DNA of 64,000 bases from positions 62,001 through 126,000 of the forward strand of contig JAKVPA010000002.1 of the NCBI GenBank assembly GCA_022482495.1, given 5' to 3'. The stretch comes from Sphaerochaeta sp. Lineage in GTDB: Bacteria; Spirochaetota; Spirochaetia; Sphaerochaetales; Sphaerochaetaceae. The notes beneath the pieces were generated by a model that made no database searches, was not told where the DNA came from, and worked only from the letters and a program-made list of their open reading frames with translations. A program made the translations under genes and the position numbers. The number at the start of each line of letters is the position of its first letter. Position 1 is the first letter of the stretch. Shown piece by piece: positions 16,722 to 44,143 of this stretch.

Positions 16722-16782
16722 ACGATAGTATCGTTCGTTTTGTCTTTTCCTTGTCCCCATGCTACCGGGAGGACAAGGGGGG
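16722..16782 (+). promoter_or_regulatory. inverted repeat and Shine-Dalgarno-overlapping hairpin upstream of the AAA+ gene
   Basis: ACGATAGTATCGT (16722-16734) is a 13-base inverted repeat that could be an operator. CCTTGTCC (16749-16756) pairs with GGACAAGG (16771-16778). The 3' arm runs into the G-rich ribosome-binding site (16776-16782) of the ATG at 16789, so the hairpin may limit translation. No clear sigma-54 -24/-12 element is seen. Confidence 0.5.
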
Positions 16783-16788
16783 ACAATC

Positions 16789-17895
16789 ATGGATTTCATC
16801 GCCGTGTTATCCGGCAACTGGCACCACACCGCAGCGCTGAAGGCATTGGTGACCTCGCATCCGGTGTACGGAGCGACCCAGGCGGAAGAACTCTTTCGGA
16901 TCTTCACCTCGGAACGGGGCTCACCTCTGGTCATCCTCGACACGCCGCTGGGGTCCAAAGGCATCGCCTCGCTCCGATCCCGTTGCCCCGCTTCGTCCGT
17001 TGTGGTGACCACCTCGCTTCCCGAAATGGCCAGGGAAGACGAAACACTCCGGTACATTCCGTGGAAAACGCTCAACACCCCGGAGACCATCACAGAGCTT
17101 CTTGGTCCTCCGCGCTCCAAATCCCCCCTCCATGTGTTGGTCGGAAAGAGTCCTGTGATGGAGAAGGTCAGACAGGAGATCGCCATCGCCGCGCGGTCCA
17201 ATCTTCCCGTCCACCTGTACGGGGAAACCGGCACCGGCAAGGAAATCGCCGCCCATCTGATCCACCAGACGCTCCATCCGGACGGCCCGGACATGGTGAT
17301 CGCCAATTGCTCCGACCTCTCCGACACGTTGGCCCGGTGCAAACTGTTTGGAACCCGCAAAGGCGCCTTCACCGACGCCAAGGAGGACACCATGGGTTTG
17401 GTGGAAATGGCCAATGGCTCCACGTTGTTCCTGGATGAACTGGAAGATCTTTGCCCAACCACCCAATCCCTGCTTCTCCGACTCCTGGAACACGGAACAT
17501 ACCAGCGGGTCGGGGAATCGGTGACCCGACACGCACGATTCCATCTGCTGACCGCATCCAACGTCCCGCTTTCCACCCTGCGGATGACCGGCAGGCTCCG
17601 TTCCGACTTGTTCTACCGCCTGTGCGGCTATCCGGTGAAAATGCCGCCGCTGCGAAGTCACAAGGAGGACATCCCGCTCCTTGTCTCCCACTTTCTCCAA
17701 AACCTGGGGGAACCAAGACCCGTCACGGAGGAAAGCCTTGGGCGCCTGGAATCCCTGTACTGGCAGGGAAATGTCCGGGAACTGTTCTCCGTACTGAAAC
17801 AAGCCATCGCGCGAAGCGTCGGGAAACAGGCGATTTCGATTGAACCAGAGATTCTGGAAGCTGACGAACAGCCCCTGCTTCCGTTTCCTTGGTAG
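16789..17895 (+). CDS. sigma-54 enhancer-binding-type AAA+ protein lacking a DNA-binding domain
   Basis: The 368-residue protein has a degenerate receiver-like N-terminus (about 1-115) and a central AAA+ domain. Walker A is GETGTGKE (145-152), Walker B is TLFLDELED (near 220), the arginine-finger region is GRLRSDLFYRL, and WQGNVREL lies near 330. The loop that normally reads GAFTGA and contacts sigma-54 reads GAFTDA (192-197), with Asp replacing the second Gly. The protein ends after the AAA+ lid with no Fis-type HTH, so it would have to act from solution or through a partner. The ATG at 16789 is preferred over 16759 because of the G-rich site just upstream. Its target is unknown. Confidence 0.8.
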   Translation: MDFIAVLSGNWHHTAALKALVTSHPVYGATQAEELFRIFTSERGSPLVILDTPLGSKGIASLRSRCPASSVVVTTSLPEMAREDETLRYIPWKTLNTPETITELLGPPRSKSPLHVLVGKSPVMEKVRQEIAIAARSNLPVHLYGETGTGKEIAAHLIHQTLHPDGPDMVIANCSDLSDTLARCKLFGTRKGAFTDAKEDTMGLVEMANGSTLFLDELEDLCPTTQSLLLRLLEHGTYQRVGESVTRHARFHLLTASNVPLSTLRMTGRLRSDLFYRLCGYPVKMPPLRSHKEDIPLLVSHFLQNLGEPRPVTEESLGRLESLYWQGNVRELFSVLKQAIARSVGKQAISIEPEILEADEQPLLPFPW

Positions 17896-18304
17896 GTGGA
17901 AGAAGGAGGAAGCGGAAGGAAAACTTTTGACAGGACGCAAGAAGTGGAGGGTAAACAGAAAACACAGCACAAATTAACCTCTCCACCGGTGTGATTCCAG
18001 CCGGTGGATAACCGGTGGACAACTCACTTCTTCCATCAAGGGAATTTGTGTTATTTTAATCACAAACCCAATTAAATCTTATATAAAAATTACGGTAAAA
18101 AACAAACGTTAAGTGGATTGTAATTATTTCTATTATATAGAGATAACAAATATTAAAAAAGTGTTGGGGAAAATGTTTCAGCCCCTGGCACTTCGCACAT
18201 CTCACATGCTTCTCCAAGCCGGTATATGACCGGTGGATAACTTGTGGACAACATGCGGAATTCCTGGTGGATACGCACTGGGGAACTCATGTATCGGTAG
18301 GGAT
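17896..18304. other. intergenic DnaA-box cluster with AT-rich core, between convergent genes
   Basis: This 409-base gap lies between two gene 3' ends, so it needs no promoter. It carries CCGGTGGATAA (18001-18011) directly abutted by CCGGTGGACAA (18012-18022). A second abutted pair follows, CCGGTGGATAA (18230-18240) and CTTGTGGACAA (18241-18251). Further copies are TCCACCGGT (about 17982-17990, reverse) and CCTGGTGGATA (18263-18273). Between the pairs, about 18040-18170 is strongly AT-rich. The same 11-mer CCGGTGGATAA occurs at 42535 upstream of dnaA. The layout resembles an origin or a DnaA titration/reactivation site. No gene is visible. Confidence 0.7.
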
Positions 18305-19594
18305 TTACCGGGTCACCTCGATGTCCAGCCCCAACGCGAAGAGTTTCTGTTGGAGGTTTTCGTAACCTCGTTCAATCTGATAGATGTTGTCGATACGGGT
18401 CGTTCCCTCGGCGCACACGCCGGCGATGACCAGCGCCATGCCGGCCCGGACATCAGGGCTGCTCACGTTGGCGCCGTGCAGCTGGGAAGGTCCGGAGACC
18501 ACGGCGCGATGGGGATCGCAGAGGATGATGTCCGCTCCCATGCGGATCAACCAATCGACGAAGTACATCCGGGACTCGAACATCTTCTCATGGACCAAAA
18601 TCATGCCGGTCATCTGGGTGGCGCAGACGGTGATGATGGATAGAAGATCGGCGGGGAACCCAGGCCACGGCGCGTCATCAATCTTCGCCGTATGACCGCC
18701 GACCTCCTTGCGGAGTATCCGCTTCTGCGCCTGGGGAACCAGAATGGAGGAAGGCCCGTCGACGGTGAAGTCAATGCCGATCCGCTGGAACCCCAGCCGG
18801 ATCATCCTGAGCTCTGCGGGGTTTACCCGCTTCAGCAGGATCTCCCCACCACTCGCACCGGCAAGCCCGATGAACGAACCGGCTTCCATGTAGTCGAACC
18901 CCAGGGTGAACTCACACCCGGACAGCTGTTTCTGCCCATCGATCCTCAGCACGTTGCTGCCGATCCCCTGGATGGGGCAGCCCATCAATTGAAGCATGGA
19001 GCAGAGGTCCTCCACATGCGGCTCGCTTGCCGCGTTGCGGATCACCGTCGTTCCCTGTGCCAGGGAAGCGGCCATGATGATGTTCTCCGTCGCCGTGACG
19101 GAGGTTTCGTCCAGAAAGACATCGGAGCCGACCAGCCGGTCTCCTTTCAGCCGCAGGGAAAGCGTCCCATCCTCCAGGACGGAACAGTCGGAGCCCAACG
19201 CGGTGAATCCCAGGAAATGGGTGTCCAGCCGGCGCAGTCCGATGACGTCCCCTCCGGGAGGGGGAAGCAGGACGCTTCCGTTGGTGGCGAGCAGGGGCCC
19301 GGCGAACAGGATGGAACCGCGTACGGCGTCAACCAGATCCGGTTGCAGACGACCTTCACGGTTTCCGCTTGTGATCACGACGGTATGGGGGTCGGTCTTC
19401 ACCACGGAAGAACCGATCTGCGAAAGGATGCGGAGCATCACCTGCACATCCTCGATCTGGGGGACGTTGTGCAGGATCACCTGCTGATCAGTCAGCAACG
19501 TCGCGGCGAGGCATGCCAACGCGGCATTCTTGTTGCCGCTGATCGTCACTTCTCCGCATGCCGGCTTGCCGCCGAAGATGGTATAGGAGCCCAT
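18305..19594 (-). CDS. murA: UDP-N-acetylglucosamine 1-carboxyvinyltransferase
   Basis: The 429-residue protein catalyses the first committed step of peptidoglycan synthesis, transferring enolpyruvate from PEP to UDP-GlcNAc. Family motifs include ISGNKNAAL (about 18-26), VRGSILFAGPLL (91-102), TATENIIMAASLAQGTT and AGMALVIAGVCAEGTT near the C-terminus. At the active-site loop the usual PGGC reads PGGD, with Asp 116 in place of the catalytic Cys. This change is known from fosfomycin-insensitive MurA of Mycobacterium, Chlamydia and Borrelia. The start at 19594 has GGAGGG just upstream; a longer frame is antisense to the pfkB gene. It is divergent from that kinase gene. Confidence 0.96.
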   Translation of the reverse strand: MGSYTIFGGKPACGEVTISGNKNAALACLAATLLTDQQVILHNVPQIEDVQVMLRILSQIGSSVVKTDPHTVVITSGNREGRLQPDLVDAVRGSILFAGPLLATNGSVLLPPPGGDVIGLRRLDTHFLGFTALGSDCSVLEDGTLSLRLKGDRLVGSDVFLDETSVTATENIIMAASLAQGTTVIRNAASEPHVEDLCSMLQLMGCPIQGIGSNVLRIDGQKQLSGCEFTLGFDYMEAGSFIGLAGASGGEILLKRVNPAELRMIRLGFQRIGIDFTVDGPSSILVPQAQKRILRKEVGGHTAKIDDAPWPGFPADLLSIITVCATQMTGMILVHEKMFESRMYFVDWLIRMGADIILCDPHRAVVSGPSQLHGANVSSPDVRAGMALVIAGVCAEGTTRIDNIYQIERGYENLQQKLFALGLDIEVTR

Positions 19595-19609
19595 GTTCCC
19601 TCCACCCCC

Positions 19610-19675
19610 ACTGTACTGTGGTGTTCCCTCTCCTGCAAGATGATTCTTGCCCCCATTGGCAAAAGGGACTATCAT
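19610..19675. promoter_or_regulatory. divergent promoters of murA and the PfkB kinase gene
   Basis: For murA (minus): TTGCAG (19633-19638), 17 bases, TACAGT (19610-19615). For the kinase (plus): TTGCCC (19647-19652), 17 bases, TATCAT (19670-19675). The kinase spacer holds the inverted repeat TTGCC/GGCAA. The GTG start follows 7 bases after TATCAT. Confidence 0.65.
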
Positions 19676-19681
19676 TGCCGT

Positions 19682-20701
19682 GTGAAACACCAAGACGCGC
19701 CCAGAGTTTACGGCATCGGCAACCCGTTGATCGACATCATTGTCAGTGTCGATGAACAGGACCTCACCGACCTGGGGATCCACAAGGGAACGATGACGCT
19801 GGTGGACCAGGCGCGCCACACCGAACTGCTTTCCTTCGCAAAGACCAAACATCCCGCCTATTCCTGCGGCGGTTCCTGCCCCAACACCATCATCACGCTG
19901 GCGTCCTTGGGCGTGCATGCCACGTTGGCCGGCAAGGTGGGGACGGATGAGAACGGGAAGATCTACAGCGACCGTCTGGATGCGCTGGGACTGGGCAACG
20001 AACTGGCCCGGACGGACCGGCAGCCGACCGGTTCCACGGTGATTCTCGTCACCCCGGATTCCGAACGGAGCATGAACACGTTCCTTGGCGCCAACCGGCT
20101 TTACGCCCGAACGGACATCATCCCGGAAACGGTGAAGGACGCCGACTTCTTCCATTTCACCGGCTACATGTGGGATACGCAGAGCCAGCAGGACGCCATC
20201 ATGCGCGCCCTCTCCCTGGCGAAAGAAAGCAAGACGACGGTGACGTTCGACATCGCGGACCCGTTTGCCGTCGGCCGCTACCGGGAGCAGTTCCTCGATC
20301 TGATCACCCACTGGTGCGACATCGTCTTCGCCAACAGCGAGGAAGCGCGGATCCTGTTCGACAACTACGATCCCTACGAATGCTGCCGGTCCATGGGAAA
20401 ACTGTGCCGGACGGCCATCGTGAAGAACGGCAAGAAAGGTTCGTTCGTCTGCCATGAAGGCCAGATATTCCATATTCCGGCAAAAACGTCCGCCCCGGTG
20501 GTGGATACAACAGGGGCCGGGGACACCTACGCCGCCGGTTACATCTATGGACTGTGCACCCACCACAGCGTGGAGGAGTCCGGGATGATCGCCTCGATCC
20601 TTGCAGGGGAGATCATCGGCCAGTACGGCGCCCAGTTCTCCGCGGAAAAAGCACGTTCCCTGCGGGAGGAACTGGAAAGCGGCGGTTGGAAGAACCGCTG
20701 A
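19682..20701 (+). CDS. PfkB-family carbohydrate/adenosine-type kinase
   Basis: The 339-residue product is a ribokinase-fold kinase. It has YGIGNPLIDIIV at the N-terminus, SCGGSCPNTI (about 58-67), GKVGTDENG (about 80) and the C-terminal PfkB signature DTTGAGDTYAAGY (about 282-294) with the catalytic Asp. The opening and spacing resemble adenosine kinase-like members, but ribose, fructose or nucleoside substrates cannot be separated by eye. The start is GTG at 19682, in frame and 7 bases after the -10, so the mRNA is probably leaderless. A long upstream frame antisense to murA is not used. Confidence 0.85.
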   Translation: MKHQDAPRVYGIGNPLIDIIVSVDEQDLTDLGIHKGTMTLVDQARHTELLSFAKTKHPAYSCGGSCPNTIITLASLGVHATLAGKVGTDENGKIYSDRLDALGLGNELARTDRQPTGSTVILVTPDSERSMNTFLGANRLYARTDIIPETVKDADFFHFTGYMWDTQSQQDAIMRALSLAKESKTTVTFDIADPFAVGRYREQFLDLITHWCDIVFANSEEARILFDNYDPYECCRSMGKLCRTAIVKNGKKGSFVCHEGQIFHIPAKTSAPVVDTTGAGDTYAAGYIYGLCTHHSVEESGMIASILAGEIIGQYGAQFSAEKARSLREELESGGWKNR

Positions 20702-20764
20702 CAACAAAACCGTTCCAAGCCATGGTATTTTCTTGATATCTCCCTAGCTTCCAAGGCTTTTTCC

Positions 20765-40227: not shown

Positions 40228-41308
40228 GAGCTTGGAACCTCCCGTCCTTCACATCATACACCAGCGTTTCCTGGGAAGGAACCTCGGAGAAGTACCGTTC
40301 CTCAGGAAGAAACGTGAAAAACGCCTGGTCATACCCGTCGATCATCTGGAGAAACCGGTTGCGTTTCTCCAGATCCAGCTCAAGCAACACGTCATCCACC
40401 AGAATGACCGGTTTCCGTCCCGTCTTCATGGTGAAGAACCGCATTTGGGCGATCCGGAACAGCAACGATGCCAGCCGGAGTTGCCCGGTGGAACCGATGT
40501 CGGAGAACGGACGCTGCCCGCAGAGGACGATGAACCGGTCGCGGTGAATGCCACTGGATGTGGTTTCCAACGCATAGTCTCGCTCCCTGGTCTGCCGCAA
40601 CGCCTGGATGACGGCTTCGGGGTTGTCACATTCCTTCCAAGAGGGACGATAGACGATGGTGATGTCCTGGTCTGTTCCGCTTACCTGACGATACAGCGAG
40701 GGAAATATCCGGTTGAACTCCTCAACCGCCTGGATTCTCCGTTTTTGGATGGAGAGTCCGTAGCCGGCGAGCTGCTGGTCATATACGGAAAGCAGCCCTT
40801 CCTGACGATCCTTCACCGCCTGGTTCCGTTGCCGGAGCACCCGGCGGTAGCGGCGCAGGTCATCGAAGAACAGCGGATCGTACAGACTCATCGTCTGGTC
40901 GAAGAACTTGCGCCGTTGTTCCGGTTCTCCGTTGACGAACCAGATGTCATCGTGGCTGAACACGATGCAGGGAATGGTATAGATCAACTCCTTCCGGTCA
41001 GTGATGACCCGCTCATCCAGCGTGATGGTCCGTTTGGCGTCCTTGTACACCAGGCTCATCATCCGGTTTTGGCCGTCATCATCCAGAAACGTCCCACAGA
41101 GGCGGAATCCTTCCGTGCCGTGCTGGATCATATCCTTGATGTCGGCTGTCCGGAACGAAGAGCCGTAACAGAGCGTGTAGATTGCTTCCAGAAAGTTGGT
41201 TTTCCCTTGTCCGTTCTCCCCAACGAGCAATACCTGCCGGGAACCGACAGGTATCGTCTCTGCAATGAGATTTCTGAATTGTGCCGTCTGGATGGAAGAA
41301 AAACGCAT
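40220..41308 (-). CDS. recF: DNA replication and repair protein RecF
   Basis: The 362-residue SMC-like ATPase has TAQFRNLIAETI, Walker A LVGENGQGKTNFLEAIYTL (about 28-46), GSTGQLRLASLLFRIAQM (signature region, about 283) and Walker B PVILVDDVLLELD (about 312). RecF helps load RecA at gaps. Its ATG overlaps the dnaN stop (ATGA) and its stop overlaps the dciA start, giving a tight dnaN-recF-dciA operon. Confidence 0.95.
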   Translation of the reverse strand: MRFSSIQTAQFRNLIAETIPVGSRQVLLVGENGQGKTNFLEAIYTLCYGSSFRTADIKDMIQHGTEGFRLCGTFLDDDGQNRMMSLVYKDAKRTITLDERVITDRKELIYTIPCIVFSHDDIWFVNGEPEQRRKFFDQTMSLYDPLFFDDLRRYRRVLRQRNQAVKDRQEGLLSVYDQQLAGYGLSIQKRRIQAVEEFNRIFPSLYRQVSGTDQDITIVYRPSWKECDNPEAVIQALRQTRERDYALETTSSGIHRDRFIVLCGQRPFSDIGSTGQLRLASLLFRIAQMRFFTMKTGRKPVILVDDVLLELDLEKRNRFLQMIDGYDQAFFTFLPEERYFSEVPSQETLVYDVKDGRFQARG

Positions 41309-42423
41309 CAGCTGTTCGGCTGCATCGGCATGACCAGGTGGAAGTAGTCATGCTCTCCTTCCGGACAGAGGGTGATCGCACGTGACGGGGTGGTGAAGTT
41401 CAACGTGAACTTCTCGCCTTCCATCACCTTCAGCGGTGCCAGGATGTACTGGTAGTTCAGGCTGATGGTGCAGGTCTCCCCCTCGTATTCGCAGGGAATC
41501 TTCTCGCTTGCCGCCCCCAGTTCGTTTTCTTCGCTGTACAACGTCAACTCATCTTTGGAAATCTGCAGGTACAGCTTGCATACCTTGCTCTCGATGGCGA
41601 CGGATACACGTTTGATGGCATCCACCATCTCCTTGACTGGAGATCAGGCAGTGGGAAGTCTGGTTCTGGGGGACGACTCTTCGGTAATCAGGATACTGGC
41701 CTTTGATCAACGTCGAGTAGAAGAAACGATTCCCTATTTTGGCGAAGATCACGTTTTCCTTGATGCACAGATCAAACGTTCCTTCCCAGTGGAAAGTTTT
41801 TTCAGTTCGGTAAAGAACTTCGTCGGAATAATAATCGGTTTGAACTCTGGAATCTGTTCGCTGAACTTGCGTTCCACAATGCTCAGCCTGCGGCCGTCTG
41901 TTGCGATCAGATTCAATCCGGCCGCTGTTTTTTCCAGATACAGTCCACAGAGGTAATGGCGGGTTTCATCCGTACTGACGGAGAACAGCGTCTGGTCCGC
42001 CATTCCGATGAACGGTTTCTGTCCCAATGTGAAGAACGGAACCTCTCCCGGATTCTCCATCATGGGGAATTCAGCGCCATCGATGACCCTGAGGGTTGAT
42101 TTGAACTTGATGCTTCCACCTTGTGGGGTGATGGTCAGCTGGCGATCCTGCGTCTCAAACAGGATATCCGCATCAGAGGGAAGCAACCGGAGAATTTCCA
42201 GAAATTTCTCTCCGTATACCGTCGTACTGCCTTCCTCTTCCGTTTGTGCCGGAATCTGGGTGGTGAAGCCGGTGGCGTTGTCCGTTGCTTTGATGAGCAG
42301 CGTGTTGTTTTTCGCCTCGAGATAAATGTTGCTCAGGATGGAAAGCGAGCTTCTTTGCTGGGTGAAGTCCATTGAGAAGACGATTTCCGTGAGGATATCT
42401 TGTTGTTTGCAGTAGAATTTCAT
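41308..42423 (-). CDS. dnaN: DNA polymerase III beta sliding clamp, interrupted by frameshifts
   Basis: Three clamp domains are recognisable: MKFYCKQQDILTEI at the N-terminus, ATDGRRLSIVERKF in the middle, and YQYILAPLKVMEGEKFTLNF with HDYFHLVMPMQ at the C-terminus. The frame changes near 41765-41772: the coding strand reads TCTGTGCATC, where TCTGCATC would give LICIKENVIF. It changes again near 41643, where an extra A or G interrupts LIS-VKEMVDAI. The segment between (IFAKIGNRFFYSTLIKGQYP) is clearly beta clamp. The whole would be about 371 residues. The gene is essential, so the breaks are most likely assembly errors. Confidence 0.93.
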
Positions 42424-42631
42424 GCCTTACTCCGATTAGGTCTCTTTATTTTAATTCATCATAATCATAATACCACAAAAAACGGTGGATTTCTACGCAA
42501 TTCATTGTACACTTGTCCGTTACGCGTTGCACAACCGGTGGATAAAAAAGTGGATAACCCGGAATTCATCCACCGGACTTTTCAGTTGTCCACCTCAATC
42601 CACCGGCTATCAAGGGGAAATCCACCGGTTG
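42424..42631. other. probable oriC (dnaA-dnaN intergenic region)
   Basis: The region has an AT-rich stretch (about 42440-42480) next to seven DnaA-box-like sites. They are CGGTGGATT (42483), CCGGTGGATAA (42535-42545), AGTGGATAA (42549-42557), ATCCACCGG (42568-42576), TTGTCCACC (42586-42594), AATCCACCGG (42597-42606) and AATCCACCGGTT (about 42619-42630). Two point one way and four the other. Location beside dnaA, recF and gyrB is the classical origin context. Confidence 0.8.
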
Positions 42632-44023: not shown

Positions 44024-44031
44024 AGCCAACT

Positions 44032-44060
44032 ATTCTACATTTGTCACGGTGAGAGTGCAA
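44032..44060 (-). promoter_or_regulatory. dnaA promoter
   Basis: Minus strand TTGCAC (44055-44060), 17 bases, TAGAAT (44032-44037). The ATG begins 9 bases after the -10. Confidence 0.65.
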
Positions 44061-44143
44061 GCAAGTTTCAACCCCTTTTCTGGAAACTCGATAACTTATT
44101 TTATTATAATAAGATAAAAATAGAGTAAAAAACCCTCTGTGGC

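Follow-up and report, generated by a model that had tools for sequence, protein, structure and literature searches.

Next to murA, the 64-kb window (the whole stretch of DNA analysed, 64,000 nucleotides) carries a non-coding element of about 250 bp in which two tandem pairs of DnaA boxes flank an AT-rich core. Its box anatomy is unique in the genome, its spacing and core motifs are conserved, it lies close to oriC, and the main origin is located elsewhere. We judge the chances about even that this element is a dedicated, conserved DnaA control locus and not an origin, of the datA or DnaA-box-cluster kind, which would restrain initiation through a looped DnaA complex. No description of such a locus in spirochaetes was found in open-licence papers.

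The murA-side gap and its DnaA-box pairs

The gap at 17896-18304 is bounded by two 3' ends, that of a sigma-54 activator gene on the plus strand and that of murA on the minus strand, and the coordinates of both genes (Table 1) bore out the earlier note in describing it as convergent. The open reading frame at 18305-20707 comprises murA together with sequence upstream of it, probably a shadow reading of a sugar-kinase-like gene encoded on the opposite strand. The closest named matches of murA come from spirochaete MAGs, among them the rumen Spirochaetaceae RUG023 (78%) and a Sphaerochaeta sp. MAG (66%), and from these relatives we take the genome to belong to Sphaerochaetaceae.

The two pairs of abutted 11-mers which that note had placed around an AT-rich stretch of about 130 bases were recovered on the plus strand as CCGGTGGATAA followed by CCGGTGGACAA at 18001-18022, and CCGGTGGATAA followed by CTTGTGGACAA at 18230-18251. 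Read on the minus strand, the same positions give TTGTCCACCGGTTATCCACCGG (18001-18022) and TTGTCCACAAGTTATCCACCGG (18230-18251), which are two head-to-tail DnaA-box pairs with a pitch of 11 bp. In the direction of murA, the stop codon is followed by 53 bp, pair 1, 207 bp with the AT-rich centre, and pair 2. The distance between the pairs is 229 bp from start to start, and the four boxes occupy 249 bp, 24 kb from dnaA.

Table 1. Positions in the window of the element, its flanking genes and the dnaA region.
Feature	Position	Strand	Remarks
Sigma-54-dependent activator	16759-17895	+	3' end is the gap boundary
DnaA-box pair 2, TTGTCCACCGG TTATCCACCGG	18001-18022	-	9-mers 18014-18022, 18003-18011
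AT-rich core	18041-18170		77% AT
Core motif B, TTATATAAG	18078-18086	-	intact; 165 bp from start of pair 1 (165-168 bp in most relatives)
Core motif A position	18125-18148	-	degenerate in the window: TGTTATCTCTATATAATAGAAATA
DnaA-box pair 1 (murA-proximal), TTGTCCACAAG TTATCCACCGG	18230-18251	-	9-mers 18243-18251, 18232-18240
Extra DnaA-box-like 9-mer, GTATCCACC	18266-18274	-	23 bp 5' of pair 1, same strand
murA (UDP-GlcNAc 1-carboxyvinyltransferase)	18305-19594	-	TIGR01072 above cut-off; element 3' of murA
dnaA-dnaN gap	42424-42631	-	six box-like sequences and an AT-rich stretch with 3-bp-periodic (degenerate trio-like) sequence
dnaA	42632-44029	-	

Throughout the 64 kb, windows of 130 bp with at least 77% AT start only at about 18025-18050, and the least stable 100 bp of the whole window begins at 18057, inside the core. 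The second least stable 100 bp (44031-44130) is found just upstream of dnaA, in the divergent dnaA-gyrB region, and also weakly matches the profile of the element's AT-rich core. Alignment of Sphaerochaetaceae sequences from pair 1 gave for motif A the consensus TGTCAAyTtaTT...TATAAAAgAA, 103-106 bp from pair 1; the other two genomes of the genus match the core less well. A scan of the relatives' cores for the IHF consensus yielded a mean best mismatch of 1.19 versus 1.50 in block shuffles (p 0.005), a weak signal whose positions differ, and the best match in the window's core has 2 mismatches. One gene of the HU/IHF family was found in the genome.

The arrangement of the boxes is rare. Tandem TTRTCCACM-NN-TTRTCCACM was observed twice in the window and never in 300 dinucleotide-model sequences of the same length. 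Far from being widespread on the chromosome, the 11-mer TTATCCACCGG has three copies in the 2.25-Mb genome, two of them in the element and the third in the dnaA-dnaN gap (42535-42545), where the earlier note had reported an identical copy. The tandem pair, with at most one mismatch, occurs twice genome-wide, both times in the murA-side gap. Lone degenerate boxes are frequent (148 TTRTCCACM sites vs 90 for the reversed control), so that the rarity belongs to the arrangement and not to the single box; among the matches listed (100 of the 148 sites genome-wide) there was no equal cluster elsewhere.

A chance cluster was thus ruled out by the dinucleotide-model simulation and by the genome-wide counts of the 11-mer and the tandem pair. 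An RNA element was also discarded, since the window yielded neither an Rfam family at gathering score nor a tRNA. That promoters do not explain the AT content, as had been proposed, held as well: the gap is flanked here by two 3' ends, and among relatives the element persists next to differing far neighbours, so a promoter region was rejected. No plasmid relatives of the locus were found.

Conservation of the element among spirochaetes

Conservation of the gap in relatives, a check suggested beforehand, was borne out by the box pairs, spacing and core motifs, which are kept across Sphaerochaetaceae. The same anatomy was present 3' of murA in two genomes of the same genus and in most other Sphaerochaetaceae whose murA locus was read, with both pairs head-to-tail on murA's strand. 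The pair-to-pair distance is 211-233 bp in Sphaerochaetaceae and 204-233 bp beside murA across spirochaete relatives. A profile built from 24 relatives, with the window's genus excluded, recovered the locus with E=3.9e-19, and a core-only profile of the same leave-genus-out design, from which the boxes had been removed, still matched 18219-18069 (E=2.4e-8). Many Sphaerochaetaceae MAGs lack the exact pattern, owing to box divergence, loss or assembly gaps.

The difference between spacings of 223 bp and of 229-233 bp sits mainly between motif B and pair 2, which are separated by about 55 bp in the former class and 63-65 bp in the latter, so that the two differ by close to a helical turn. Spacings cluster near 204, 212, 222 and 231 bp and are non-uniform compared with random values of 204-234 bp (32 approximate lineages, ancestry uncorrected). 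This clustering is suggestive of helical phasing.

Pair 1 starts about 24-83 bp after the murA stop codon in nearly all Sphaerochaetaceae, two exceptions having 117 and 250 bp, and in the window the element lies between convergent 3' ends. This position just past murA would suit a transcription boundary, at which DnaA blocks read-through from murA or from the convergent neighbour, or regulates that neighbour; DnaA boxes as transcription roadblocks are discussed in PMC10950094. Such a role leaves unexplained both the set spacing of two pairs more than 200 bp apart and the core motifs, and the element is retained while the downstream neighbour varies. We therefore regard it as improbable.

The murA locus is on dnaA's strand, on the dnaN side and 8.5-29 kb away, in 25 of 25 genomes that carry both genes on one contig; the count scores the murA locus, and the element itself was checked in all but a few. 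An oriented, single-copy, origin-proximal and conserved site could also serve DnaA-dependent anchoring or segregation, so as to position the origin region while leaving DnaA activity itself unaffected. We give that role very little credence.

In Sphaerochaeta and close relatives, and in the two same-genus genomes (L010, L011, L033, L034 and L035), an additional inverted DnaA box was observed 107-108 bp beyond pair 2.

Beyond the family, 297 Spirochaetia genomes were scanned for two GTTATCCAC boxes on the same strand, separated by 195-225 bp; 53 matched, and the reversed control gave 0. In a subset of 118 genomes, gaps of 195-225 bp were found in 25 genomes, compared with 6 for 226-256 bp and 8 for 164-194 bp. 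Many matches outside Sphaerochaetaceae also adjoin murA (families f3, f4, f17 and f26). Homology at this distance rests on the box layout and on partial murA synteny, because the core-only profile finds no matches outside Sphaerochaetaceae.

Other matches have different neighbours. In family f24, probably Treponema, the arrangement lies between an O6-methylguanine methyltransferase gene and dciA (L193, L194 and L196), with other copies beside STAS and polyprenyl-synthase genes; in complete genomes of this family the look-alike is about 140-860 kb from dnaA, positions being compared by hand. In L159, L169, L201 and L202, from several families, its neighbour is not murA but an OmpR-type (Trans_reg_C) regulator gene, whose 3' end it directly adjoins. 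The two boxes of L174 (G104, family f12) are directly upstream of dnaA, so that this match may be part of oriC or of dnaA autoregulation rather than a murA-side element.

For spirochaetes at large, we rate a shade below an even chance the reading that this is an ancient, sequence-defined initiator-control locus, an independent counterpart of datA, in which helically phased DnaA-pair sites around a bendable core, kept on the murA side in several families, would form a loop complex that times replication.

Position of the main origin

Cumulative GC skew, which had been put forward as a means of locating the replication start, reached its minimum in the window at 37.5 kb; the element is at 18.1 kb and the dnaA-dnaN gap at 42.5 kb. 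In four genomes (the window's and three complete relatives) the minimum was no more than about 6 kb from dnaA, a long way from the element. The dnaA-dnaN gap is probably oriC, judging from its sequence, and holds clustered boxes in nearly all relatives examined.

DnaA-trios, as defined for the bacterial basal unwinding system (PMC8287927), form runs of 3-9 strict units in the relatives' dnaA-dnaN gaps; the strict scan covered 300 bp, and the run of G039 lies beyond that limit and is visible in the gap sequence. No box-adjacent run comparable to these was found in the element. The trios of the window's own oriC are degenerate and score 2 in the strict scan, so that the trio contrast between element and oriC rests on the relatives. 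The possibility that the element is the functional, main origin, one of those raised by the earlier note, was thus rejected on the GC-skew minimum near dnaA together with the box array of the dnaA-dnaN gap and the trio arrays that this gap has in relatives.

Two further observations were made in this region. The window's dnaN (41308-42423, minus strand) is interrupted: its frame breaks and returns at about 41628-41755, with internal stops between, which is probably a sequence error or recent damage to an essential gene. In another genome (G034:C291:3424-3674) the dnaA-dnaN array is very dense: some 250 bp hold about eight tandem DnaA-box pairs.

That the element contains the window's least stable DNA is also in keeping with an unwinding site, and this weighs against the control-locus reading. 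The element might then be an additional or reserve origin, or else belong to a split oriC as its remote partner; DnaA bound to the pairs would open the core or, by looping, reach the dnaA-dnaN boxes and help to open them. No other DNA in the window is as AT-rich or as unstable as its core, tandem boxes flank this core as in oriC, and in Sphaerochaetaceae it is oriC-proximal. Set against these features are the skew minimum, away from the element in all four genomes, the lack by the pairs of a trio array like those of the relatives, and the similar box arrangement that family f24 carries so far from dnaA. On balance we consider this reading unlikely.

In the bipartite oriC of B. subtilis and Helicobacter pylori the two halves are about one gene apart. 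Here, too, the origin side of the chromosome has two DnaA-box regions, of which one has trios; the element differs in its 8.5-29 kb from dnaA and in having no trio array. Half of a split origin, also proposed earlier, survives only within the minor rival just described, since that distance is far beyond those of known bipartite origins and the f24 look-alike is farther still.

A possible DnaA control locus compared with known systems

With the main origin placed near dnaA, we return to the element as a control locus. We infer that DnaA binds the pairs, two molecules to each, which at an 11-bp pitch would lie roughly on one helix face. The AT-rich, bendable core would be folded, probably by a protein of the HU/IHF family, and DnaA on both pairs would meet by closing a loop some 20-22 helical turns long; it is the constrained spacing together with the bendable core that argues for this contact. 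The complex might hold DnaA or inactivate it by ATP hydrolysis, soon after the replication fork leaves oriC and doubles the locus, and the outcome would be negative, with re-initiation restrained. Parallels would be datA in E. coli and the DnaA-box clusters of Bacillus subtilis.

To our knowledge, most of what is understood in detail about dedicated chromosomal sites for tuning DnaA activity comes from E. coli (datA, DARS), with a looser picture for B. subtilis. If the proposal is true, a conserved site of set architecture in spirochaetes would mean that such control arose or persisted far beyond those lineages, and the element offers a short, single-copy target for asking whether the control of DnaA by a locus is a general principle. 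Caution is also advisable with origins called from DnaA boxes and AT content alone, given that the most origin-like composition of this window is not at the origin.

DARS1 and DARS2 are, like the element, non-coding DnaA-box loci with conserved box spacing, and are defined by the head-to-head DnaA boxes I and II (PMC10380432). A DARS-like locus would reactivate bound DnaA by exchange of ADP for ATP and so promote initiation; the compact cluster with its conserved spacing would fit, as would the third, inverted box that Sphaerochaeta and its close relatives carry about 107 bp beyond pair 2. This third box is absent from the window, and the defining head-to-head pair is missing, the boxes conserved throughout the family being head-to-tail on murA's strand. 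Box orientation rules against DARS identity, and we hold a reactivating role to be a slim prospect. Of the datA- or DARS-like locus envisaged by the earlier note, the DARS half is therefore disfavoured, and the datA half is the best fit.

The B. subtilis clusters resemble the element in being DnaA-box clusters outside oriC, and their joint removal leads to early initiation (PMC5295017). B. subtilis has six such clusters, and the effect is strong only once all six are gone; the element is a single locus, set in its two-pair anatomy and with a conserved core.

For datA, which is near oriC, boxes on either side of an IHF bend site at a set spacing are needed, and the IHF bend is postulated to bring DnaA on the flanking boxes together in a loop, upon which ATP is hydrolysed (PMC10380432, PMC4585315). 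datA has boxes 2, 3, 7 and 4 in place of two tandem pairs 204-233 bp apart, and the element of the window's genome has no clear IHF consensus. Both loci are non-coding, near oriC and downstream of a transcription unit, and their sizes are similar (187 bp for minimal datA, about 250 bp for the element). In the element, boxes flank the core at constrained spacing, and the AT-rich core and its motifs suggest a putative bend site, for which the IHF-consensus evidence is weak. This datA-type layout, along with the missing head-to-head boxes, favours a negative-acting locus of the datA or DnaA-box-cluster kind.
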